A stretch of 64,000 bases of DNA from Lysobacter sp. Its GTDB lineage: Bacteria; Pseudomonadota; Gammaproteobacteria; Xanthomonadales; Xanthomonadaceae. The notes beneath the pieces were generated by a model. It did not search any database, was not told the origin of the DNA, and saw nothing but the letters and a program-made list of their open reading frames with translations. Positions 14,394 to 25,772 of this stretch are shown here, piece after piece; positions within the stretch are counted from its first letter, which is position 1, and each line of letters starts with the position of its first letter. The translations under genes and the position numbers were made by a program. The DNA lies in contig SSGH01000011.1 of the NCBI GenBank assembly GCA_008015835.1, forward strand, positions 62,001 through 126,000. Direction: 5' to 3'.

Positions 14394-14486
14394 GGAGAGT
14401 TGCCCGAGAGGCCGAAGGGGCTCCCCTGCTAAGGGAGTATGGGGTCAAAAGCTCCATCGAGGGTTCGAATCCCTCACTCTCCGCCA
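14394..14486 (+). tRNA. tRNA-Ser(GCT)
   Basis: 93 nt, class II with a long variable arm (TATGGGGTCAAAAGCTCCATC region). Acceptor arms GGAGAGT / ACTCTCC, anticodon loop CTGCTAA giving anticodon GCT, T-loop GGGTTCGAATCCC, discriminator G and encoded CCA. It reads AGC/AGU serine codons. Confidence 0.97.
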
Positions 14487-14640
14487 TTCACGTTCGATAG
14501 CGAACGACCGATTCGCCGGCCGCCCTTAGGGGGCCGTGCGGTCGGAATGCGCGAGCGACGCCGCGATGCGGCGGCTCGCGGTCGAAGCGTTCGTCGCCGG
14601 CCGTTCAGACACCGAACGTGAGATTCCCAACGCAAGATTC

Positions 14641-14670
14641 CGAACGCCGACCCACCCGGGTCGGCGTTCG
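14641..14670. terminator. GC-rich hairpin downstream of the barrel gene
   Basis: A perfect 13-bp stem (14641-14653 with 14658-14670, loop ACCC) lies between tRNA-Ser and the 3' end of the minus-strand operon. It has no T tract on either side, so it may be a weak terminator or an mRNA-stabilising structure. The remaining part of 14487-14753 shows nothing else. Confidence 0.45.
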
Positions 14671-14753
14671 CGTATGCGCGAACGAATGCGCGAAAGAATA
14701 GGGGACGACGGCGCGGAGCGACGGGCTGGGCATCGCCCGCGCCGAATCGCGAT

Positions 14754-15998
14754 TCAGAACACGAACCCGAGTTCGGCGAAGGCCAGATCGTTGTCGCGGC
14801 GGGAGCCGAACACGGTGTCGTCGCGGCCGTAGGCGCGGTCGGCGCCGACGACGACTTTGAAGCGGTCGTCGACTTGATAGGTGAGGCGCGGCCGCAGCAT
14901 GCCGCTGCCGTCGTCGAGCGAAAACGCGCCCGCCCATTCCAGTTTCAGGCGCTCGTTGCGCAGACGCTGGGTCAGCCGCAGCGTCAAGGACTGTTCGCGC
15001 GGCCGAAATTCGCGATTCAGCGTGTTCAACGCGCTCGCGAGCGGTCTGAACGACGCCGGCAGCGTGGCCGGATCGCGATAATCGGCGCGCGCGGCGTAGA
15101 CCCACTGCAGATTCAGATTCGCGGTGTCGCCGAGGTCGGTGTCGAGCCCGAGCACCGCGCGCAGCGCGTCGCCGCGGGCCTCTTTGCGGACATAGGCCGC
15201 TTCGCCGCGGAACGACCAGCGTCCAGCGGCGGTCGCGAAATCGGCGCCGGCTACCTGCGCGCGTTCGTAGCCGACCGCTAGCGCGGGCCGCGGCGAGAGC
15301 GCGGCCAGCCGGTAGCGCGGCATGCGGTCGTACCCGTCGAACCACGACAGCGACCAGTCGAAGCGCTCGCCGACGCGGTCGAGCCGCAGCCCGCGATCCA
15401 AACGTTGCGGCGGGTCGTCGCGGCGCAGCGGTTTCGGGAGTGGGCCTTCCGGCAAGCGATGCGGCGCGTAGTCGGCGACGACACCGGTCAACGAGGTCGA
15501 GCCGCCCAGATCCAGGCGCAGCGACAGCGCATCGCTGCCGCGGCGCTGTTCGTCGTCGTCGGAGGCCAGCAGGGTGTAGTCGCGGGTGGAGAAGCTGTCG
15601 GTGGGGTTGATCTTGTCGGCGCGGCCCCAGGCGACGATCTGCCGGCCCGCGCGCAGGGTCCAGCGGCCGCGATCGAATTCCGCGAACGCTTCGCGCAGTT
15701 CGGCGTCGGCGTCGGTCGCGGCGCCAGTGTGGCGGCTGCCCAGACGCCCGCTGAGTCCGAAGCGCAGATGCTCGCCGGCATCGCCGCGCCACTGGATCAG
15801 GCAGTCGGCTTTGGCGATGCCGTCGCGGTCGTCGAGATCGCGGTTCGACGACCACCATCCCGCGCGGCATTCGCCGAAGGGCGGCTCCACCGCGCGCGCA
15901 TCGCCGATGGCGACCGCGCCGACGATCAGCGCGACCCCAGCGAGCGCCGCAGCGCCGAAGCGGCGCGCCGGTCGGCGGCGTGCGAAAGCGCGACGCAT
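14754..15998 (-). CDS. outer-membrane beta-barrel protein (DUF1302-like) of the lipid-export operon
   Basis: 414 residues. A signal peptide ends near ARAVEPP. The mature protein consists of alternating amphipathic strands with aromatic girdles (GRWTLRAGRQIVAWGRADKINPTDSFSTRDY is the conserved entry region). It closes on FAELGFVF, a C-terminal Phe typical of BAM-inserted barrels. The GRQ-VAWG-D-INP motif is the recognisable part of DUF1302-type porins, which are often encoded next to RND/MMPL exporters and LolA-like proteins. It is the last gene of the operon and starts six bases after the exporter stop. The likely role is the outer-membrane end of the export route for whatever the operon makes. 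Alternatively it is a substrate-specific porin. Confidence 0.75.
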   Translation of the reverse strand: MRRAFARRRPARRFGAAALAGVALIVGAVAIGDARAVEPPFGECRAGWWSSNRDLDDRDGIAKADCLIQWRGDAGEHLRFGLSGRLGSRHTGAATDADAELREAFAEFDRGRWTLRAGRQIVAWGRADKINPTDSFSTRDYTLLASDDDEQRRGSDALSLRLDLGGSTSLTGVVADYAPHRLPEGPLPKPLRRDDPPQRLDRGLRLDRVGERFDWSLSWFDGYDRMPRYRLAALSPRPALAVGYERAQVAGADFATAAGRWSFRGEAAYVRKEARGDALRAVLGLDTDLGDTANLNLQWVYAARADYRDPATLPASFRPLASALNTLNREFRPREQSLTLRLTQRLRNERLKLEWAGAFSLDDGSGMLRPRLTYQVDDRFKVVVGADRAYGRDDTVFGSRRDNDLAFAELGFVF

Positions 15999-16004
15999 GC
16001 CGAC

Positions 16005-19000
16005 TTACTGCTCTTTTTCCAGGTAGTGGGTGGAGAAAAACTCGTCGCCCAGGCCGGTGTTCGCCTTGAACGTATCGAACTTCACCAGCGTGGTGTGGCC
16101 GGTTTGGTGATTGCGCACTTTCACGCTCATCGGCTGCCATTTGCCCGGCGCGCCGTCGATCGCGCGCAGGTCGGCGTTCTCCAAGGTCTTCAGCAGTTGG
16201 CCGGAGGCATCGTAGAAATCGACTTTCAGCGCGACGAAGCTGTCCTTCGCGACCCAACTCACGCGCTTGGAATAGCCGGAGTCCCCCGCGATTTTCGCGC
16301 TGATCGGTTTGGATTCGACCACGTACACCGCCTTGCCGGCGATGGCGGCGTCGGGCTGCAGCGTGTGGGTCCAATCCTCGGGGCGATGGCCGACGATGTC
16401 GCCGTACGACAGATCGGTGCCGATGAAACTGCTGCGTTTGTTGTTCGCGGCCAAACGACGCGCTTTTTTCGTCGCCGGCAGATACACCCAGATGTCGTCG
16501 TCCTTACCCGCGTTTTCGATCAGCAGCGTGGCGGTGTTGCGCACGTCGCTGGGCGAGAGGAAGCGGATCATGCGCCGGTTCTGCACGCCGTCGGGCTGCA
16601 TCTTGGTCACGCCGAGCGTTTTGCGCACGCGCTCTTGGCCGCCGCTGCTGATGAGACGGAACGTCGCTTCCGAGCGCGAGTCGGCGAAGCGCGTGGCTTG
16701 ATAGTTGCGGGTCATCACCGTCTTGGCGTCGGGCGACGCGGCGTGGGCCGGCGCATGCGCGGCCAACGTCGCGGCCAGCAACACCGCCGCCGCGCCCGCC
16801 AGCGGCGCGGGCGCGGTCTTCCCCGCGCCGAGCGCGAACGCGGGTTTGAAGGTCTTGAGCAACGCGGGGATCAGGATCAAAGCGGAGGCGGCGCTGACGA
16901 TCATGGACATGACGATGAGAATCCCGAACCAGATGTGGACGTAGAAGCCGAAGGAGAACAGCAGGACCGAGTAACCGCCGGCGATGGCCGAGGCCACGTA
17001 GACGATGGCTTTGCCCGCGGTTTGCATGGTTTCGCGCAGGGCGAGATCGAAATCGCCGAACCCGGCGTATTCCTCGCGGAAGCGGTAGAGCAGATAGATC
17101 GCGTAGTCGGCGCCGATGCCGATCGCCATCGCCGAATTCACCGAATTCGGCGTGTTCAGCGGGATGCCGGTCAGGCCCATCACGCCGAAATTCACCAGCA
17201 CGGTGAGCAGCAGCGGCGCGGCGAGATACAGCCCCGCGGCCATCGAGCGGAAGATGATCGCGCCGGCGATCAGCACCACCAGCATCATCTGCAGGATGTT
17301 GCGGATTTTGCCCTCGACCAGGGTTTCGCTCAGCGCCGAGGACTGCGGCACGCTGCCGCCGATTTGGATGCGCACGCCTTTGGGCAACTGCGGTTCCACG
17401 AACGCGCGGATGTCGGCGACGGCTTTGCCGGCGAAGCGGCTGCTGTCGTTCTTCATCCATACGATCAGATTCGCGTTCTTGTAGTCGTAATCGATGTACG
17501 GATCGAAATCGGTCGGCTGCCCGGACATCGAATACAGCAGCAAGTACTGCGACACCAAGTCTTGCGAACCCGGCAGTGCGTCGAACGTGCGGTCGCCGCC
17601 GTTCATCGAACTGTTCATGCGCTTGAGCAAGTCGACGATCGACAGCGTCTTGCCGACCTCGGGCATGCGTTCGACGTAGCGCTGGGTGCGTTCGATCAGC
17701 GCCAGCACATCCGGGTCTTTCATGCGATCGACGGCGTCGCCTTCGAACACCACGTACAGCGTGTTCGTGCCGGCCAGATGCGCGTTGAGGAAGCGGTCCT
17801 CGGCGCGGATGTCGAGGTCTTCGGCGAAATAACTTTTGGTCGAATTCTCGCGCTGCACGAAACCCAAGCCGACCGAGGCCAGCGCGGCCACCGCCAGGAA
17901 CCCGACGAGTACGGCTTTATTGCGGCGCAGGACCAAGTCGCTGATGCCGTCGGCGAATTTGCGCCAGAGCGGGCCGACGTTCGTTTTTCCGGTCGACGGC
18001 GGCGGCGCGGGCAGCAGGCTGCGCAGCGCGGGAATGAAGGTCAGTTCGATGACCATCGCGCTGACGATGCCGAGGCCGGTGAAGATGCCGAAGGTGCGGA
18101 TCGTCGCCACATCGAAGGTGATGAGCGAGAAGAAGCCGAGCGTCGCCACCAAGCCCGCGGTCAACATCACCGGCGCGACCTTCGACAGCGATTCGACGAT
18201 CGCGATGTCGTTCGAGACCACGCGCGGCACGCCCGGCTGCGCCTGCGTCGCGCGGTCGTACTCTTCGTAATAGCGCTTGAGGATCTGCACCGCGTGCCCG
18301 GCGGCGACCGCCAGGATCAGGATCGGCGTGGTGGCGTTGAACGCGTCCATCGGCACGCCCGACGCGCCCATGATGCCGAGCCCCCACACCACCGCGAGCA
18401 GGGCCGTCACCAGCGGCAGGATCAAGCCCTGCAGCGTGCGGAACGCCTCGAAGTGGATCAGGCCGATGATCAGCAGCGCCATCGGAAACAGCAGCAGCAT
18501 GCGCTGCGCGAAGCGCTCGACCGCGGCGATGAACACCGCCGTGCCGCTCACGTCGATGCGCAGGCCGGTCTTGCGCTCGGCCTCGACGACGGCGAGCACC
18601 GGGTCGACGATCTCGCGGAAACCCCGCTTACCGGCGGAGATCGCGAACGACACCGCGGCGACTTTGCCGTCGGCGGAGACCAGCGTGCCGCGATAGATCG
18701 GATTGCCGTCGATGCGCGCGCGCAGGCCGCGCATCGCCTCGGCGTTCACAGGCGAGGCCAGCATCGGCTCGACCCGCATTTCGACCTCGTCGCCGGAGAT
18801 CGCTTTCGCTTTCTCGGCGGTCAGGCTCATCATCGTGTGCTGTTTGACGCCGGGCACCGCGCTGAGTTTGCGGGTCAGCCGATCGATCGCGGCCAGCGCT
18901 TTCGGGTCGTCGTAGACCGTCTTGCCGTCCGCGGCGCTGACGCCGACCACCACGACATGTTTGGAGCCGAACAGACGCTCGGCGGTCAGCGTGCCGATCA

Positions 19001-19214
19001 CGTTCGGATGGTGCTGCGGCAGCATCGTATTCGGGTCGATCACGATCCGCAGATTGCCGATCTGCATGCCGAACAGCGCAGTGACGATCGCGATCGCGGC
19101 CACCACTTTGATGCGGTGGCCGATGATCGCGCCGCAGATGCGGGCGACCGCGGCTTGCATGCGGGTGCGCGGCCGGCCGTCGAGCGGCGTCGAGGTGCGA
19201 TCTGCGGGCGTCAT
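16005..19214 (-). CDS. RND/MMPL-family exporter fused to a LolA-like periplasmic domain
   Basis: 1069 residues. Residues 1 to about 790 form an RND permease: TM1 (KVVAAIAIVTALFG), a periplasmic loop, five TMs (LLLFPMALLIIGLIHF and onward), a second periplasmic loop and a second six-TM block (GIGADYAIYLLYRF and onward). A hydrophobic Ala-rich segment near 800-815 follows, ending APAHAASPDAKTVM, like a retained signal peptide. After it comes a LolA/DUF4292-like half-barrel (about 818-1069) with MIRFLSPSDVRNTATLLIEN, DDIWVYLPATKKARRLA and KPISAKIAGDSGYSKRV. Normally these are two genes. Here the frame is continuous with no start codon at the junction. The start overlaps the monooxygenase stop (ATGA). 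RND proton relay residues and substrate are not assigned, but the setting indicates lipid export. Confidence 0.85.
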   Translation of the reverse strand: MTPADRTSTPLDGRPRTRMQAAVARICGAIIGHRIKVVAAIAIVTALFGMQIGNLRIVIDPNTMLPQHHPNVIGTLTAERLFGSKHVVVVGVSAADGKTVYDDPKALAAIDRLTRKLSAVPGVKQHTMMSLTAEKAKAISGDEVEMRVEPMLASPVNAEAMRGLRARIDGNPIYRGTLVSADGKVAAVSFAISAGKRGFREIVDPVLAVVEAERKTGLRIDVSGTAVFIAAVERFAQRMLLLFPMALLIIGLIHFEAFRTLQGLILPLVTALLAVVWGLGIMGASGVPMDAFNATTPILILAVAAGHAVQILKRYYEEYDRATQAQPGVPRVVSNDIAIVESLSKVAPVMLTAGLVATLGFFSLITFDVATIRTFGIFTGLGIVSAMVIELTFIPALRSLLPAPPPSTGKTNVGPLWRKFADGISDLVLRRNKAVLVGFLAVAALASVGLGFVQRENSTKSYFAEDLDIRAEDRFLNAHLAGTNTLYVVFEGDAVDRMKDPDVLALIERTQRYVERMPEVGKTLSIVDLLKRMNSSMNGGDRTFDALPGSQDLVSQYLLLYSMSGQPTDFDPYIDYDYKNANLIVWMKNDSSRFAGKAVADIRAFVEPQLPKGVRIQIGGSVPQSSALSETLVEGKIRNILQMMLVVLIAGAIIFRSMAAGLYLAAPLLLTVLVNFGVMGLTGIPLNTPNSVNSAMAIGIGADYAIYLLYRFREEYAGFGDFDLALRETMQTAGKAIVYVASAIAGGYSVLLFSFGFYVHIWFGILIVMSMIVSAASALILIPALLKTFKPAFALGAGKTAPAPLAGAAAVLLAATLAAHAPAHAASPDAKTVMTRNYQATRFADSRSEATFRLISSGGQERVRKTLGVTKMQPDGVQNRRMIRFLSPSDVRNTATLLIENAGKDDDIWVYLPATKKARRLAANNKRSSFIGTDLSYGDIVGHRPEDWTHTLQPDAAIAGKAVYVVESKPISAKIAGDSGYSKRVSWVAKDSFVALKVDFYDASGQLLKTLENADLRAIDGAPGKWQPMSVKVRNHQTGHTTLVKFDTFKANTGLGDEFFSTHYLEKEQ

Positions 19215-20314
19215 GGGGCGGCGGTCTCGGAAGCGACAGCGGTCGCGGACGTGTTCAGATAGGTTCGCACGGCGCCGACCACGCGTTCTGTGTCGCGTTC
19301 CACGCCCAACACCAATTCGGAGGCGCGGCAGCTCAGCCAACGCCGGCCCACCACGAAGAAGCCGGGCTCGGGCGTGCGCCCGTAATCGGCGTACAGGTCC
19401 TGCGGCGAGCGAATGCCCGGCAGCGCGAGCCAATCCATGCGTTCCTGATAGCCGCCGCACCACAGCACGGCGTCGACCTCGACGCGCTCGCCGTCGGCGA
19501 ACACGACCGCGCGTCCGTCGGCGTCGGTCGCGCGCGCCGTCAGCCGCACGCCGCGCGCGGCGAGGATGGCGTCGCGGCAATTCGCGACCGGAATCGGGTC
19601 GCGCTTGCGCAGAATGCGGCCGATCGCGCTGTCGCGGTCGGCGTAGGCCACGCCGGTGAGATCGAGCCACCAAAACAAACTGCGGCCGAGCAAGCGGTTG
19701 GGCATCATCTTGCGAATGCGCCCGCGCGCCAGTACGACGCGACGCCCGGCTTCGATCAGTTCCAGCGCGATCTGGCGGCCGCTGGCGCCGTCGCCGACGA
19801 TGCAGACGGTGCGATCCGCGCCGAAGTCGTCGGGGTCGCGATATGCGCCCGCCGCGATCTGCTTCACGCTCGGGTCCAGCCGCGACGCGAACGCCGGTAT
19901 TTTTTGCGCCTGATTGGCGCCGGCGGCGTCGATCACGGTTCGGGCGCGCACGCTGCGGCCGTCGGCGAGGCGCGCGACGAAGGCGCCATTCGATGCGCTC
20001 GCGGCGTCGCGCTCCAGCCGTTCAACGCGCGTCGAAAGCGCGACGTCGATGCCGAGGCGTTCGACCACCGAGGCGAGGTAGTCGCCGTATTCGGCGCCGG
20101 ACGGATTGCCGTCGGCATCGCCGCTCATCGCGATCCCGCAGATCGAGGAATAGCGGCGCGGTGTGAACAACCGCAATCCGCGCGGCCGCCGCCGCCAGGT
20201 CTCGCCGACGCGTTCGTCGGCGTCCACGAGCAGGGCGTCGATGCCCGCGCGCTTGAGCTTGTGCGCGCAGGCGATGCCGAACTGACCCGCGCCGATGATG
20301 AGGCAATCGTGCAT
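19211..20314 (-). CDS. FAD-dependent monooxygenase-like oxidoreductase
   Basis: 367 residues. The FAD dinucleotide fold is at the N terminus (LIIGAGQFGIACAHKLKRAG). A second GxGxxG-like site (VCIVGDGASGRQIALELIEAGR, about residues 170-190) would bind NAD(P)H, and the C-terminal segment ends with a short FVVGRRW strand. This two-Rossmann pattern is that of flavin-containing or Baeyer-Villiger-type monooxygenases and lysine/ornithine hydroxylase relatives. The canonical FxGxxxHxxxW fingerprint is not seen, so the reaction is open. In this operon it may oxidise an ACP-bound acyl chain or a sulfur group. It lies one base downstream of the ACP gene and overlaps the exporter gene by 4 bp. Confidence 0.8.
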   Translation of the reverse strand: MHDCLIIGAGQFGIACAHKLKRAGIDALLVDADERVGETWRRRPRGLRLFTPRRYSSICGIAMSGDADGNPSGAEYGDYLASVVERLGIDVALSTRVERLERDAASASNGAFVARLADGRSVRARTVIDAAGANQAQKIPAFASRLDPSVKQIAAGAYRDPDDFGADRTVCIVGDGASGRQIALELIEAGRRVVLARGRIRKMMPNRLLGRSLFWWLDLTGVAYADRDSAIGRILRKRDPIPVANCRDAILAARGVRLTARATDADGRAVVFADGERVEVDAVLWCGGYQERMDWLALPGIRSPQDLYADYGRTPEPGFFVVGRRWLSCRASELVLGVERDTERVVGAVRTYLNTSATAVASETAAP

Positions 20315-20315
20315 A

Positions 20316-20639
20316 TCAAATCCCCAACAGTGTCTTTTCGTCGATCGCTTCGCCGTTGGCCTGCGCGCGCACGTACTGCGCTAACGCGTCGACGGTGACG
20401 AAGTCGAACGCGAGCCCCGGCTCCAGGGTCAGCCCGTACTCGGTTTCCAAGGCTTGCACCAAACCGACGCGCGCCATCGAATCGAGCCCGAGCGCGTCGA
20501 AGGACGTTTCGCCGGTCAAGGGCGTATCGAAATCGGGATCGGATTCGCGCAACAGGCGCAGCAGATGGCGACGGATCGCGTTGGCGACGGCCGCATCGGT
20601 GAGCGGGGGCGCGCCTTCGCCGGGCACGGACGCGTTCAT
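20316..20639 (-). CDS. acyl carrier protein
   Basis: 107 residues, a single ACP domain after a Pro-rich leader of about 12 residues. The 4'-phosphopantetheine attachment Ser54 sits in the signature GLDSMARVGL, followed by helix II and the typical EYGLTLEPGLAFDFVTVDALAQYV region. It would hold the acyl chain as a thioester after loading by the fatty acyl-AMP ligase. The start ATG overlaps the stop of that ligase gene (ATGA), supporting stoichiometric coupling. It is not the housekeeping AcpP because it lacks the fab context and its acidic profile. Confidence 0.93.
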   Translation of the reverse strand: MNASVPGEGAPPLTDAAVANAIRRHLLRLLRESDPDFDTPLTGETSFDALGLDSMARVGLVQALETEYGLTLEPGLAFDFVTVDALAQYVRAQANGEAIDEKTLLGI

Positions 20640-22423
20640 GGGGTCACCGCCGCTTCGGGCGTCGCGCGTTCTGATGCGTCGCGCTTTGACCCGTCGCGTT
20701 CGTTCGACGCCGCGAATTCGCCGCGCAGATACATTTGCGCGCATTTGCGACGCTGCAGTTTGCCGCTGGAGGTGCGCGGAATGCCGCCTTGCTCGACCAC
20801 GACCAGGGCTTTCAGCGTCAACTCGTGGGCTTGCGTCATCGCCGTGCGCACGCGCTCGACGATCGCGGGCCGGTCGACTGCGGTCAGCGGCATGCCGCGC
20901 GGCAGTTCCAACAGCGCCGCCACGCCGCCGCCGCTGCTCTCGTCGAGCGCGAACGCCGCGGCGAACGCGCCGACCGCGCGCGGTTCTCGTTCGAGCGCCG
21001 CCGCGACGATGGTGGCTTCCAGATCGGTCGGATAGTAGTTGCGGCCGCGGAGAATGATCAGCTCCTTGATCCGTCCGGTGACGTGGACGCGATCGCCCAG
21101 CATGAACCCTAAATCGCCGGTGCGCAGGAATGCGCCATCGCAATCGGGGCTGCGCGCGCCGAACGTCGCCGCGCTCGCGTCGGCGTTGCGCCAATAGCCC
21201 GAGGCGACGCTCGGCCCGGCGAACCACAGCTCGCCGACCTCGCCGTCGGCGCGCCGCGCGCCGGTCTCGGGATCGACGACGATCAGTCGGTGACCGGCCA
21301 CCACCGCGCCGCAGCACACCACCGCTTGCGCATCGACGGCGTCCGCTTCGACCGGCCGCGCGCGTCCCTGCGCCAGCGCCTTGCGCTCGACGTGGACGAC
21401 GCGATGCTCGGGCGCGGTCGCGCCGCCGGAGACGATCAAGGTCGCTTCGGCCAAGCCGTAGCAGGGCTTCACCGCGTCGGCGGAGAGCCCATACGGCGCG
21501 AACGCCGCGACGAATCGCGTCACCGTCTCCGCGTTCACCGGCTCGGCGCCGCAGTACAGCCCGTCCAGCGACGACAGATCCAAGTCCGGCGGAATCTGAT
21601 CGCGCGGGATGTGCGCGCACATCTCCAAAGCGAAGTTCGGCGCGGGCGAAATCGAAATCTTGTAGCGCTGAATCAGCCGCAGCCAGCGCAGCGGCCGCTG
21701 CAGGAAATGCAGCGGCGAAATGAAGGCGACCTGGCCGCCGAGCGCCAGCGGCGCGAGGCTCATGCCGATCAAGCCCATGTCGTGGAACTGCGGCAGCCAG
21801 CCGCCGCAGCAGAAATATTCCGCCATCGGGCCGGAGTCCCGAACGGCGCGCAAATTCGCCAGCAATTGGGCGTGAGTGACCATCACGCCTTTCGGATGGC
21901 CGGTGGAGCCGGAGGTGTACTGCAGGAACGCGACATCATCGCCGCCGACGCGCGGCGCGTTCGTCGCCTCGGCCGCATCCGCGGCGTCGGCCGCGCGTTC
22001 GGTCAGCACGCGCAAACCGGAGGCTTCGGCGTTCAAACCGGCCAGCACCGTGGCGCGCAATTCGTCGGTCGTCACCACCGCGACGCTGTGCGCATCCTCC
22101 AGAATCAGGCGCAGGCGTTCGTATTGATGCCGATTGCGGGCCACGTTCGCGGGCACCGCGGACGTGCCCGCGTAAAGGCAGGCGAAAAACCCGATCAAGA
22201 ATTCGATGCCCGAATGGAACAGCAGCAGCACCGGCGCATCCGCCGCGCCTTCGCGCCGCAGTACGCTCGCCAGCGCGCGCGCGCGTCGCCGCAGTTCGCC
22301 GTACTCGAGCGTCTCCTCCTGCGCGTCGCCGTCGGCGAGGAAACTGGCCGCGCGCGCGGTCGGCTGCGTCGCCGCGTAATGATCGATGCAGTCGAGCAGG
22401 GTGTTCGCGGTATCAAGCCGCAT
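20636..22423 (-). CDS. fatty acyl-AMP ligase (FAAL), ANL superfamily
   Basis: 595 residues from the ATG at 22423. The AMP-binding core motif YTSGSTGHPKGVMVTH is near residue 190. The FAAL-typical GGWLPQFHDMGLIG, the motif YGLAEATLIVSGG, the acidic TGDLGFM and the hinge/Lys region (GRIKELIILRGRNYYP, then RTSSGKLQRRKC) are in order. This set distinguishes FAALs, which pass acyl-adenylates to ACP, from CoA ligases. It overlaps the desulfurase gene upstream by 11 bp and the ACP downstream by 4 bp, so ACP loading is the obvious role. The C-terminal 35 residues are a charged tail. Confidence 0.93.
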   Translation of the reverse strand: MRLDTANTLLDCIDHYAATQPTARAASFLADGDAQEETLEYGELRRRARALASVLRREGAADAPVLLLFHSGIEFLIGFFACLYAGTSAVPANVARNRHQYERLRLILEDAHSVAVVTTDELRATVLAGLNAEASGLRVLTERAADAADAAEATNAPRVGGDDVAFLQYTSGSTGHPKGVMVTHAQLLANLRAVRDSGPMAEYFCCGGWLPQFHDMGLIGMSLAPLALGGQVAFISPLHFLQRPLRWLRLIQRYKISISPAPNFALEMCAHIPRDQIPPDLDLSSLDGLYCGAEPVNAETVTRFVAAFAPYGLSADAVKPCYGLAEATLIVSGGATAPEHRVVHVERKALAQGRARPVEADAVDAQAVVCCGAVVAGHRLIVVDPETGARRADGEVGELWFAGPSVASGYWRNADASAATFGARSPDCDGAFLRTGDLGFMLGDRVHVTGRIKELIILRGRNYYPTDLEATIVAAALEREPRAVGAFAAAFALDESSGGGVAALLELPRGMPLTAVDRPAIVERVRTAMTQAHELTLKALVVVEQGGIPRTSSGKLQRRKCAQMYLRGEFAASNERDGSKRDASERATPEAAVTP

Positions 22424-23612
22424 GGGGAGCCTCCTTGCGTATCGGGTTGGCGATCGAATCCAACAGCGCCACGCTTTTGTCGATCGCCTCGCACAGGCGC
22501 GCGATCGCCGCCTCGTCGGTGTCGGCGTGCAGACTGAGGCGCAGCGTCGCGCGAATGCGGTCTTCGGGCAGGCCGATCGCGCGCAGCACATGCGACAGCG
22601 CCGCCGCCTTATTGTTGCTGCAGGCCGCGCCCAGCGACACTTGCATGTCGTGGCTGTGATCGAGAATCGCGGCCAGCGCTTCGGCGCGGACGCCTGGAAT
22701 GGTGACGCTGAGCGTGTTCGGCAAACGCGCGTCGTCCGCGGCGGGGCCGTTGAAGACGACGTTCGCGACTTTGCCGCGCAGGCCGTCGCGCAGCGTCTCG
22801 CGCAGCGCGCGCATGCGCGCGATGCCTGCATCGAGATCGCTGCGCGCGTGATCGGCGGCCGCGCCCATCGCGGCGATGCTCGCCAGCGCTTCGGTGCCGC
22901 CGCGCAGCCCGCGCTCCTGGCCGCCGCCGTGCAGCAGCGGCGCGAGTTCCACGCCTGTGCGCAGATACAGCCCGCCGACGCCTTTTGGCCCGCAGAACTT
23001 GTGCGCGGCGAACGACAGACTGTCGACGCCCAGCGCATGCGCGTCCACCGGCCGCTTGCCGATGGCTTGCACCGCATCGGTGTGGACATGGATGCCGCGC
23101 CCGCGCAGCGCTTCGGCGATCGCCGCGATCGGCTGCACCGCGCCGATTTCGTTGTTCGCCAACATCACCGACACCAGCCGCGTGTCCGGCCGCAGCGCGT
23201 CGATCACGGCCTGCGGGCGAATCAGGCCCTCGGCGTCGGGCGCGACCACGGTGAGCGCGACGTTGCGATAGCGCTGCAGATAGTGCGCGACTTCCAGCAC
23301 CGAGGCGTGTTCGATCGCGGACACGATCATGTGGCACTCGCCGCCGGGTTCGCGCGCGCGCAGCGCGTCGATCGCGCCTTTCAACGCCCAGTTGTTGGCT
23401 TCGGTGCCGCCGGAGGTGAACACGATCTCCTCGCGGTCGGCGCCGATCAGCGCGGCGACCGCCGCGCGCGCGTTCGCCATCAGCGCGCGCGATGCCTTCG
23501 CCATGCGGTAGTGGCTCGACGGGTTCGCGAACGTGCGCAGCGCGTTCAGCAGCGCCTCCTGCGCGGGGGCGCACATCGGCGTGGTGGCGTTGAAGTCGAA
23601 ATAACCGTCCAT
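22413..23612 (-). CDS. NifS/IscS-type cysteine desulfurase (PLP enzyme)
   Basis: 399 residues starting MDGYFDFNATTPM. Fold type I aminotransferase motifs are complete: TSGGTEANNWALKGA near 66-80, AIEHASV near 100, the PLP Lys205 in FAAHKFCGPKGVGG, and the active-site Cys331 in LGAACSNNKAAALSHVLRA. The C-terminal small domain is present. NifS-class enzymes take sulfane sulfur from cysteine to form an enzyme persulfide. Its partner IscU-like gene is 11 bp upstream, but none of the remaining isc genes (iscR, iscA, hscBA, fdx) is here. The setting in an acyl-activation operon suggests dedicated sulfur supply or maturation of one Fe-S protein rather than general assembly. Confidence 0.93.
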   Translation of the reverse strand: MDGYFDFNATTPMCAPAQEALLNALRTFANPSSHYRMAKASRALMANARAAVAALIGADREEIVFTSGGTEANNWALKGAIDALRAREPGGECHMIVSAIEHASVLEVAHYLQRYRNVALTVVAPDAEGLIRPQAVIDALRPDTRLVSVMLANNEIGAVQPIAAIAEALRGRGIHVHTDAVQAIGKRPVDAHALGVDSLSFAAHKFCGPKGVGGLYLRTGVELAPLLHGGGQERGLRGGTEALASIAAMGAAADHARSDLDAGIARMRALRETLRDGLRGKVANVVFNGPAADDARLPNTLSVTIPGVRAEALAAILDHSHDMQVSLGAACSNNKAAALSHVLRAIGLPEDRIRATLRLSLHADTDEAAIARLCEAIDKSVALLDSIANPIRKEAPHAA

Positions 23613-23623
23613 GGATCGGCGCC

Positions 23624-23986
23624 TCAGCGGTCGTCGGGCGAAGCGTTCAACTGCGCGAACAACGACCGCAGCATCTCCAGACAATGCATCTGCGACGGTT
23701 CCAACTCGCCCAACAGCGCTTCGATGGCCTCCGGAGCGGTGGTCGCGGCATCGCGCAGCGATTTATTTTCGACGTGTTCGCAAAATGCGTTGCCGGTCGC
23801 GAGCGACGTCGCGCAGCCCCAGGCCTGATAGCGCGCTTCCGCGATGCGATCGCCTTCGATCCGCAGATCGACGCGCAAGCGGTCGCCGCAGACCGGATTG
23901 CCCAACTCGAGCGTGCGCGAAGCGTCGGGCAATTCGCCCGTGTGGGTCGGGTTCGAGAAATGTCGGACGATGATGTCGTTGAACAT
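23624..23986 (-). CDS. IscU/NifU-N-type Fe-S cluster scaffold
   Basis: 120 residues. The three cluster-ligand cysteines of IscU are in place: Cys33 (NPVCGDRL), Cys58 (AWGCATSLA) and Cys102 (QMHCLEML). The conserved LPPVK chaperone-binding loop of classic IscU is not recognised between the second and third Cys, so HscA-independent use is likely. It ends shortly after the third Cys motif. It is directly upstream of the desulfurase and would accept sulfur from it. It might build a cluster for an operon enzyme, or act as a sulfur relay to an acyl substrate. No Fe-S enzyme is encoded in the operon. Confidence 0.88.
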   Translation of the reverse strand: MFNDIIVRHFSNPTHTGELPDASRTLELGNPVCGDRLRVDLRIEGDRIAEARYQAWGCATSLATGNAFCEHVENKSLRDAATTAPEAIEALLGELEPSQMHCLEMLRSLFAQLNASPDDR

Positions 23987-24054
23987 GACGGGGAGCACCG
24001 AAGAAGGGGGGACGCCGAAGAGACCGTGAACCGCGCGCGGCGGCCGTTCGAGAT

Positions 24055-25254
24055 TCAGACCACCAGCGGACATTCGCTGAGCGCGGCGCCGTCTTCGTCC
24101 ATCTTGCGTTCGAGATTCACCGCGCAGCAGCCGAATTCCAGCGAAGTCGGCGCGCGCATGATGTATTCGATGCGCTGACCGCTGCGTCCGGACGGGCTTT
24201 CGCCGGGCAGCAGGCGCACGAGATCCTCGCTCATGATCATGCCCGGCGTGGACATCGAGAACGGGTCGAGTACGCCCAACACGCCCTGTTCGCCCGCGGC
24301 GACTTCGCGACTGAGGTCGTTGACGTCGCGGACGGTGATGTGCGCGTAGGGCGAGACGTGCTTGACCTGATGCTCGTCTTCGATCGCCAACATGCTCGAC
24401 TCGACCAAACCGTAAATGTCGCGGATCGACGACGCCGGCAGGCCGAGATATTCCTCGCCCAGCAGATTGAATTCGCGGCGCGAAATCATCCGCCCGTCGT
24501 AACGCTTCCAGCCGCCGAGCGTGATGATGCGGCTGCCGCGATCGAGCGACAGCTTGCGGCCGCTCTGTTTGACGAAGAGCATCAGACGATGGATCAGGAA
24601 CGGCGGGCCGATGATGTGCCGGGTGAAGCGGCCTTCCCACGCCTGCAACTGCAGCAGCGCGTCTTCGGGCGAGAACCGGTCGCCGCGCACCATGAAACGA
24701 TGGGTGTCGAGCAGCCCGGACAGCATGTTCAGCGCCTTGAGCATCCCCATCTCGGGGATTTCCTCGGTCGAGGGGCTGACGTAGAGGCCGGCACCCTTGA
24801 AGAAGCCGAAGAATTCGCGATACATCGCGTAGATCGCGGTGACCGACAGATCGACCGTCTGCGTGCAGCGCCGCGAAATGCTGGGAATGCCGCTGGTGCC
24901 GGTGCTGCGCATTTCGTGTTCGATCGCGTTCAGCGGCTTCGACAGCAGCTCGTGGCTGGTGTTGGACCTGAACTTGGCGATCGGAATCAGCGGAATGCGG
25001 ATCAAATCGTCATAGCCGCGAATAGCGTCGGGATGCAGATCGCGACCACGACAGGCTTCGCGGTAGTAGCGGTTGTGCTCGTAGTGGAAGCGGAACGCTT
25101 CGCGGATCAGATCGGCCTTGATCCGGTCGAGCTGCGCCTGCGGCAGGCGATACAGTTCCGACACCGATGCGGCGACCGCTTTCATCGGATCGAGTCCGAG
25201 CGCGCGCAGCGACAGAACGGACGCGGAAGAGGGATCGGCAGGATTGGGGGACAT
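24055..25254 (-). CDS. LuxE-family acyl-protein synthetase-like adenylating enzyme
   Basis: 399 residues from the ATG at 25254, which has the operon's best ribosome site (AAGGAGAG) and a GTG codon directly before it. The layout matches LuxE/PaaK-like proteins: an N-terminal helical part (FRFHYEHNRYYREAC), the Ser/Thr/Gly motif EMRSTGTSGIPS for ATP, GGWKRYDGRMI, and the YGLVESSMLA core followed by DPFSMSTPGMIMSEDLVRL. LuxE activates fatty acids as acyl-AMP and keeps them on a Cys for reduction. There is no LuxC reductase gene nearby, so the acyl group may go elsewhere, perhaps to the sulfur chemistry of the adjacent genes. It is the first gene of the eight-gene operon. Confidence 0.82.
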   Translation of the reverse strand: MSPNPADPSSASVLSLRALGLDPMKAVAASVSELYRLPQAQLDRIKADLIREAFRFHYEHNRYYREACRGRDLHPDAIRGYDDLIRIPLIPIAKFRSNTSHELLSKPLNAIEHEMRSTGTSGIPSISRRCTQTVDLSVTAIYAMYREFFGFFKGAGLYVSPSTEEIPEMGMLKALNMLSGLLDTHRFMVRGDRFSPEDALLQLQAWEGRFTRHIIGPPFLIHRLMLFVKQSGRKLSLDRGSRIITLGGWKRYDGRMISRREFNLLGEEYLGLPASSIRDIYGLVESSMLAIEDEHQVKHVSPYAHITVRDVNDLSREVAAGEQGVLGVLDPFSMSTPGMIMSEDLVRLLPGESPSGRSGQRIEYIMRAPTSLEFGCCAVNLERKMDEDGAALSECPLVV

Positions 25255-25650
25255 CACGTTTCTCTCCTTAGAAACCGTCGGGGCGGCGATGCACGCTTCG
25301 CCCCGTCGCTCATCTTAGCGGTCCACCGGTCGGCGGCGCATGCGCGGCGTCAAACCGGCGAGCGGCGGAAGGCGGAGGGGCTCGAATTCGCCGCGGCGTC
25401 TTCGTCGGCGCATATCGACGGCGACCTAGCCCTGGCTACGGACGATCGGGGGAAATCAGGCCATTCCTGCGGCTATGGCCGTCGGGCGGACCCTTCGCGC
25501 GCCCCGGCCGTGCGCGCGGGACGACGCTACGCCATTCCAGCGCCTTGGCGTCGCGTCGCGCGAGACATGAGCGGGCCGGCGGCGACGGGCGTTGGCGTTC
25601 GCGACGCGTCCAGGGCGTGAACGCGTTCGGAGTCGGATGCGCGCGGGGCG
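25255..25650. other. Intergenic region between the operon start and tRNA-Arg
   Basis: It holds the operon's ribosome site (AAGGAGAG, minus strand) and presumably its promoter, which I cannot place with confidence. No ORF with protein-like features, repeat or hairpin stands out. Confidence 0.5.
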
Positions 25651-25679
25651 TTGACCTTCGCGCGCGATCCCGGCACAAT
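25651..25679 (+). promoter_or_regulatory. Promoter for tRNA-Arg(ACG)
   Basis: TTGACC (25651-25656), 17 bp, CACAAT (25674-25679). The start point would be about 25686, ten bases before the mature 5' end. Confidence 0.5.
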
Positions 25680-25695
25680 TCCGCTCCTTGACTCT

Positions 25696-25772
25696 GCGCC
25701 CGTAGCTCAGCTGGATAGAGCACCAGGCTACGAACTTGGGGGTCGGAGGTTCGAATCCTTCCGGGCGCGCCA
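25696..25772 (+). tRNA. tRNA-Arg(ACG)
   Basis: 77 nt. Acceptor GCGCCCG / CGGGCGC, D arm TAGCTCAGCTGGATAGAGCA, anticodon loop CTACGAA giving ACG (A34 to be deaminated to inosine by TadA), T-loop GGTTCGAATCC, encoded CCA. It reads CGU/CGC/CGA. Confidence 0.97.

Follow-up and report, generated by a model that had tools for sequence, protein, structure and literature searches.

Genes of the operon

The window considered here is a 64,000-nucleotide stretch of a Lysobacter sp. contig (SSGH01000011.1), and its minus strand carries, between positions 14754 and 25254, an operon of eight open reading frames (ORFs) arranged head to tail that join acyl activation, sulfur mobilization, and export. An earlier note had assigned these ORFs to eight families and placed the junctions between -11 and about 70 bp. 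Family scans and gene models agree: all eight are real genes of the families first named, with junctions of 68, 11, -11, -4, 1, -4, and 6 bp in the order LuxE, IscU, NifS, fatty acyl-AMP ligase (FAAL), acyl carrier protein (ACP), flavin monooxygenase (FMO), MMPL, and barrel.

The first gene (24055–25254) encodes a LuxE-family acyl-protein synthetase of 399 residues (PF04443, E 2.3e-34) with an adenylation motif and a C-terminal C376-C377 pair, matched by the profile of the LuxE structure 7xc6 (E 1e-48). It is followed by an IscU/NifU_N-like scaffold or sulfur-transfer protein of 120 residues (23624–23986; PF01592, E 5.9e-25), for which an alternative start upstream at 24073 is possible, and by a NifS/IscS-like cysteine desulfurase of 399 residues with Cys331 (22413–23612; PF00266, Aminotran_5, E 5.7e-67) that scores 353 bits against the NCBIfam NifS model, under the equivalog cut-off of that model. 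Next come the AMP-binding FAAL (595 residues, 20636–22423; PF00501, E 3.7e-69), whose top PDB matches are the FAALs 7r7f, 3kxw, and FadD32, and an ACP of 107 residues with a GLDS motif (20316–20639; PF00550, PP-binding, E 1e-10). The FAD/NAD(P)H monooxygenase-like FMO (367 residues, 19211–20314; PF13738, E 2.5e-20) resembles ArsO and SMFMO, scoring 144 bits with the ArsO model, under its cut-off; its nearest solved relatives in the PDB are 4usr, 4usq, 4c5o, and 4a9w, a group known for sulfide oxidation.

The last two genes bear on export. An MMPL transporter of 1069 residues (16005–19214; PF03176, E 2.6e-40) is fused at its C-terminus to a LolA-like domain (PF17131, E 2.7e-54, residues 879–1067), and a predicted outer-membrane β-barrel of 414 residues (14754–15998) is DUF1302-like by a PF06980 match (E 4.8e-9) spanning 84 residues only. 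The AlphaFold model of the barrel is all-β with a mean pLDDT of only 66, and Foldseek matches it to AlgE and porins at an E of about 1e-6. These matches are consistent with the export role first proposed.

A family scan of the eight proteins found no polyketide synthase (PKS) or nonribosomal peptide synthetase (NRPS) module and no LuxC reductase, as the earlier note had stated, nor any LuxD, CoA-transferase, ThiS-like carrier, or known C–S-forming enzyme family. At E ≤ 0.01, no known iron-sulfur (Fe-S) family besides IscU was matched among them. A fatty-aldehyde route was rejected since no LuxC family is present among the eight. A simple scan of the operon strand saw no promoter-like site upstream and no terminator-like site downstream.

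The operon genes are under purifying selection. The pairwise ratio of nonsynonymous to synonymous substitution rates (dN/dS) against sister genomes is 0.08–0.22 for LuxE, IscU, NifS, FAAL, FMO (over 145 codons only), MMPL, and barrel; the ACP is too short for such a comparison.

The constant core

Relatives were gathered with LuxE alone as bait. A scan of contigs from 84,980 species for two peptide patterns, which misses relatives with neither pattern, returned 57 loci: 47 of the LuxE clade and ten distant ones from Thermoplasmata. There are also 21 matching plasmid records, 14 of them from Priestia, and two Priestia plasmids bring the LuxE-clade loci compared to 49. Three of these loci (L032, L048, and L057) apparently duplicate G224, G796, and G341, whose contigs match theirs in length, and two (L056 and L035) stop at contig ends, where a missing gene is not proof of absence.

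IscU and NifS matches occur in 46 of the 49 loci, and in all 46 the genes are ordered LuxE, IscU, NifS on one strand. These triad loci come from Pseudomonadota, Bacillota, one Bacteroidota record, and one Cyanobacteriota record, so that synteny outside the strain, on which the earlier note had staked its case, does exist for these three genes; together with the low dN/dS values, it makes the eight-gene set more than a chance assembly. Contrary to what the earlier note had looked for, conservation across Lysobacteraceae did not emerge: besides the genome of the window itself, LuxE matched in one of 148 genomes, at 27% identity. The LuxE gene is infrequent yet has a broad phylogenetic range, with matches in 2 of 149 genomes of the family sample (the window's own and the one at 27% identity), 3 of 369 in the class sample and 2 of 398 in the Pseudomonadota sample (own genome counted in both), and 1 of 398 in the Bacillota sample, namely the centre itself. 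The three loci without the triad are L057, where a transposase gene comes after LuxE, and the Chloroflexota loci L058 and L059.

Around this core the gene content varies. FAAL is present in 39 of the 46 triad loci and absent from seven, and ACP is present in 41 and absent from five; five loci lack both. No FAAL match at E ≤ 1e-40 was found in four of the seven genomes searched. FAAL, which the earlier note had chosen as a seed for synteny searches, was therefore rejected as the defining gene. The exporter type is interchangeable: an MMPL exporter occurs in 20 loci (LolA-fused in 8, with a separate LolA match in 10, and with no LolA found in 2), MFS plus HlyD in eight Xenorhabdus loci, MFS in L053, L054, L055, L061, and L062, RND in Bizionia, and an ABC system in clostridial loci. 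Eight loci (L022–L029) have the same gene order as the window. What stays constant is LuxE-IscU-NifS, accompanied in 44 of 45 loci by either of two types of hydroxylase.

Some loci have features of their own. At 17 of the 46 triad loci, a gene for an AraC-type regulator is found close to the operon (L047:4736-5650 is one), a hint that the product may be inducible. In Peribacillus frigoritolerans (L054:10589-12145), IscU and NifS have split frames and a ketoacyl-synthase gene lies near FAAL, while Xenorhabdus anantnagensis has a second NifS-like ORF downstream of the operon (L049:11216-12394). The ten Thermoplasmata loci (L068–L077), whose LuxE-like genes are distant (25–30% identity), were set aside since the stretch examined holds no IscU or NifS match; eight of the ten share a neighbouring ORF family of 321–366 residues.

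Conserved residues

Catalytic residues are kept, and the acyl activation proposed in the earlier note is supported. LuxE C377 is found in 50 of 50 aligned rows and is in register with the C-terminal cysteine of the L078 LuxE, a lux gene of presumably Photorhabdus origin that is carried by a plasmid of E. coli K-12. The preceding C376 is kept in 49 of 50 rows, the exception being the interrupted L057; the L078 LuxE and the five Thermoplasmata sequences compared have a single cysteine there and no doublet. The motif L52-D53-S54 of the ACP, with its attachment serine intact, is invariant in 37 of 37 rows, and NifS C331 is kept in 45 of 46. In IscU, C33, D35, and C58 are found in 46 of 46 rows, and H101 and C102 in 45 of 46. 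Leading up to its last cysteine, IscU shows the sequence LEPSQxHC or a variant; LPPVK, the HscA chaperone site of IscU, is found in none of the 46 rows, one of which is cut off there. One locus, L018, is the same as L032 and was left out of these alignments.

Two kinds of hydroxylase

The hydroxylase gene near the core is of either of two types, an FMO as in the window or a pair of UbiU/UbiV-like proteins. Across 45 loci, the FMO is found in 38 and the pair in 7, with both in one (L060) and neither in one (L030). Within loci the two are near-exclusive (Fisher p 5.9e-6, a value that overstates the case, as rows are related: among the 45 are eight Xenorhabdus, a pair of nearly identical Priestia plasmids, and two Cytobacillus whose LuxE is the same); L021, which ends with its contig, and the triad-free L057–L059 were left out of this count. 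All seven pair-bearing loci are from Bacillota, and six of them have no FMO. Genome-wide, no FMO match at E ≤ 1e-15 was found in L055 and L062. An O2-independent enzyme would make sense in L066 and L067, which stem from clostridial bins; the other five pair-bearing Bacillota are presumably aerobic or facultative.

Of the two paired proteins, the first resembles UbiU, with an hhalign probability of 98.6% to the E. coli protein. The second aligns to UbiV with a probability of 2.5% and no significant score and has no Pfam or NCBIfam match, and structure comparison of it gave weak TIM-barrel matches only; a search for solved U32 relatives came up empty for both proteins. Its four invariant cysteines align with C39, C180, C193, and C197 of UbiV, and the UbiV spacing CXnCX12CX3C is kept in 5 of 7 rows, so the apparent likeness to UbiV is one of cysteines only. 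With four invariant cysteines in each protein, the pair should bind 4Fe-4S clusters. As a separate observation, a small ORF lies upstream of FMO in two Bacillaceae, PrdB-like (D-proline reductase) in L056:6876-7385 and GRDB-like in L060:6899-7405.

Genomic site and history

The operon fills the interval between two plus-strand tRNA genes identified by ARAGORN, tRNA-Ser(GCT) on its left (14394–14486) and tRNA-Arg(ACG) on its right (25696–25772), that is, window positions 14394–25772. The csrA/tRNA-Ser stretch is present in 11 of 11 congeners searched, own genome included, and eight of these have no operon genes in the stretch fetched. The distance from tRNA-Ser to tRNA-Arg is 122–421 bp in seven of these eight; for the remaining one (L096), the stretch showed no tRNA-Arg. 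In five of the eight (G013, G061, G089, G115, and G137), LuxE has no match genome-wide. Near kin carry the operon: G1296 and G1297 have the barrel and MMPL genes beside tRNA-Ser as in the window, the G1297 contig running from a partial FMO through MMPL to the barrel, and a contig of a Lysobacter metagenome-assembled genome (L021) holds LuxE through the first 30 residues of ACP. A strain-specific or decayed cluster was rejected on the dN/dS values and on the G1297 and L021 copies.

In the LuxE tree, from which L057 was left out, the window groups with Cellvibrio, Pseudomonas, and betaproteobacteria (support 100/100). This placement and the congeners without an operon between the tRNA genes fit a gain by horizontal transfer. 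The GC content of the operon (0.673) is similar to that of the window (0.659), and composition thus does not betray a transfer.

Proposed pathway and alternatives

We propose, at a little short of an even chance, that the operon, probably gained by horizontal transfer, makes an exported sulfur-containing acyl compound for which a thiocarboxylate is the most likely intermediate. By homology, LuxE would adenylate a carboxylic acid and keep the acyl group on Cys377, while NifS would take sulfur from cysteine and IscU would pass it on as a persulfide to LuxE, with the adjacent Cys376 as a possible acceptor. Attack of the persulfide on the acyl group would then free a thiocarboxylic acid, R-COSH. 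The FMO in the window, or the UbiU/UbiV-like Fe-S pair in some Bacillota, may then hydroxylate the product: on sulfur, which would yield an acylsulfenic acid, or just as well on a carbon of the chain. In most versions FAAL and ACP would provide or hold a fatty acyl chain, and MMPL-LolA and the barrel would take the product of the window's version to the outer membrane. The modified, possibly sulfur-containing lipid suggested by the earlier note survives in part: a lipid is the likely product here, judging from FAAL, ACP, and the MMPL-LolA-barrel set, and it is not required in every version.

A thiocarboxylate is preferred because the constant neighbour of IscU and NifS is an acyl activator, LuxE, and because no Fe-S enzyme was matched in the window's operon, which leaves IscU there without an evident cluster client. 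Persulfide attack on an adenylated carboxylate is, moreover, the established route to protein thiocarboxylates (PMC6006322). Also in favour are the LuxE-IscU-NifS order in 46 of 49 loci gathered by LuxE alone, the conserved catalytic residues, the LEPSQxHC-type residues of IscU at the place of LPPVK, the near-exclusive occurrence of the two hydroxylases within loci, the nearest solved relatives of the FMO, and the purifying selection.

Several points weigh against this proposal. Its evidence consists of gene content, gene order, conservation, and selection, from which every chemical step is inferred. It offers no explanation for FAAL and ACP standing beside a second adenylating enzyme, LuxE. 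The Chloroflexota L058 and L059 have a LuxE with the CC doublet, and the stretch examined (only 3470 bases in L059) shows no match to IscU, NifS, or a hydroxylase; the doublet thus does not need IscU or NifS. Photobacterium lipolyticum L030 has the operon with neither hydroxylase in the locus (L030:13744-13853) and no FMO match at E ≤ 1e-15 in its genome, while L053 and L061, with the pair in the locus, have an FMO-like gene elsewhere in the genome (34% and 30% identity); the exclusivity of the two hydroxylases thus holds for loci only. UbiU-UbiV are O2-independent enzymes that act in carbon hydroxylation (PMC6747719), which argues against S-hydroxylation as the step shared by both types.

The most serious alternative, although unlikely, is that IscU and NifS serve to assemble an Fe-S cluster for the pathway or for a regulator and that the exported product is an ordinary acylated, hydroxylated lipid with no sulfur in it. 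The IscU of these loci retains the full Cys-Asp-Cys-His-Cys set of cluster ligands (C33, D35, C58, H101, and C102), a further point against our proposal since such a protein may simply build clusters, and the seven Bacillota loci offer it a potential client in the UbiU/UbiV-like pair. However, IscU and NifS are retained in the FMO-type loci (38 of 45), their order is tied to LuxE and not to the hydroxylase, no recognizable Fe-S enzyme stands in the only operon that was scanned in full, that of the window, and the host is already equipped with SUF. That last fact bears also on whether the operon could be a housekeeping sulfur operon that neighbours lipid genes by chance, an idea we find very hard to credit. 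Its one attraction is that PF01592 (NifU_N) has a single match in the genome, the operon gene. Yet contig C13 holds the two SUFBD_core matches of the genome with its best Aminotran_5 match beside them, and four proteins there score over an NCBIfam cut-off as SufS, SufD, SufC, and SufB. The NifS/IscU pair is thus an extra, accessory one; had it been the only isc system of the genome, the reading of the earlier note would by its own terms have fallen. A housekeeping role was rejected on this ground, and the rarity and patchiness of the LuxE gene and the congeners without the operon speak against it as well.

It is also conceivable, although rather improbable, that the product contains sulfur without passing through a thiocarboxylate, for instance with sulfur placed on a carbon of an ACP-bound chain or as an acyl persulfide or diacyl disulfide. 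In favour of this, FAAL, ACP, and FMO lie side by side in most loci of the FMO type, and four Bacillota have, after the UbiUV-like pair, a gene for an acyl-CoA dehydrogenase, an enzyme that could supply an enoyl acceptor. Against it stand the lack of any known C–S-forming family among the eight window proteins and the five triad loci from which both FAAL and ACP are missing. Our own proposal, the thiocarboxylate route, can be stated in a fuller form: LuxE-IscU-NifS would be an unrecognized machine for small-molecule thiocarboxylic acids in four phyla, in which a repurposed IscU hands a persulfide to a self-acylating LuxE with vicinal cysteines, and interchangeable O2-dependent flavin and O2-independent UbiU/V-like hydroxylases turn the thioacid into an acylsulfenic acid. 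As a whole, this chain of steps is a speculation to which we give a low probability.

Relation to known systems

All parts of the operon come from known families, and their combination is apparently undescribed. The closest match in proposed chemistry is the thioacid cassette PtmA3/PtmU4 of thioplatensimycin, with its counterparts QbsL/QbsK and the pdt genes, in which an activated carboxylate and protein-bound sulfur give R-COSH (PMC6006322). That cassette uses a type III CoA-transferase, PtmU4, and a ThiS-like carrier, neither of which has a family member among the eight proteins of the window; here, activation would be of LuxE type and sulfur would come through IscU and a dedicated NifS. With the Lux fatty acid reductase (LuxC-LuxE), the operon shares a LuxE relative with the acyl-accepting C-terminal cysteine in register (Cys364 in Photobacterium phosphoreum LuxE; PMC8301110), whereas LuxC and LuxD are absent, the cysteine is part of a Cys-Cys doublet, and IscU and NifS are constant companions.

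Other resemblances are more limited. FAAL and an ACP with an intact serine recall the FAAL-ACP starter unit of PKS/NRPS pathways, but no PKS/NRPS module stands in the operon. The cluster ligands are shared with housekeeping Isc/Suf assembly, while LPPVK and the status of sole or main system are not. Likeness to UbiU-UbiV hydroxylases is confined to the pair of the seven Bacillota relatives and does not extend to the window. In the sulfenicin pathway, a flavin S-hydroxylase reportedly acts on a thiocarboxylic acid to form an acylsulfenic acid, with which hydroxylation on sulfur in the present operon would agree. Measured against the eight proteins, each of the nearest systems falls short in a defining feature, so we assign the operon to none of them. 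The earlier note knew of no pathway with this gene set, and the literature searched, with most subscription journals outside its reach, likewise gave no description of the eight-gene set or of the LuxE-IscU-NifS unit.

If the proposed pathway is true, it would be a further bacterial way of placing sulfur on a carboxylate, and the IscU relative would act as a sulfur donor to a small molecule and not as a cluster scaffold. The apparent exchange of the FMO for a UbiU/V-like pair would offer a way into O2-independent hydroxylation on a new substrate. The operon would also point to exported sulfur-acyl compounds in Pseudomonas, Xenorhabdus, Shewanella, Bacillaceae, and others as a family that, as far as the literature searched shows, is undescribed.

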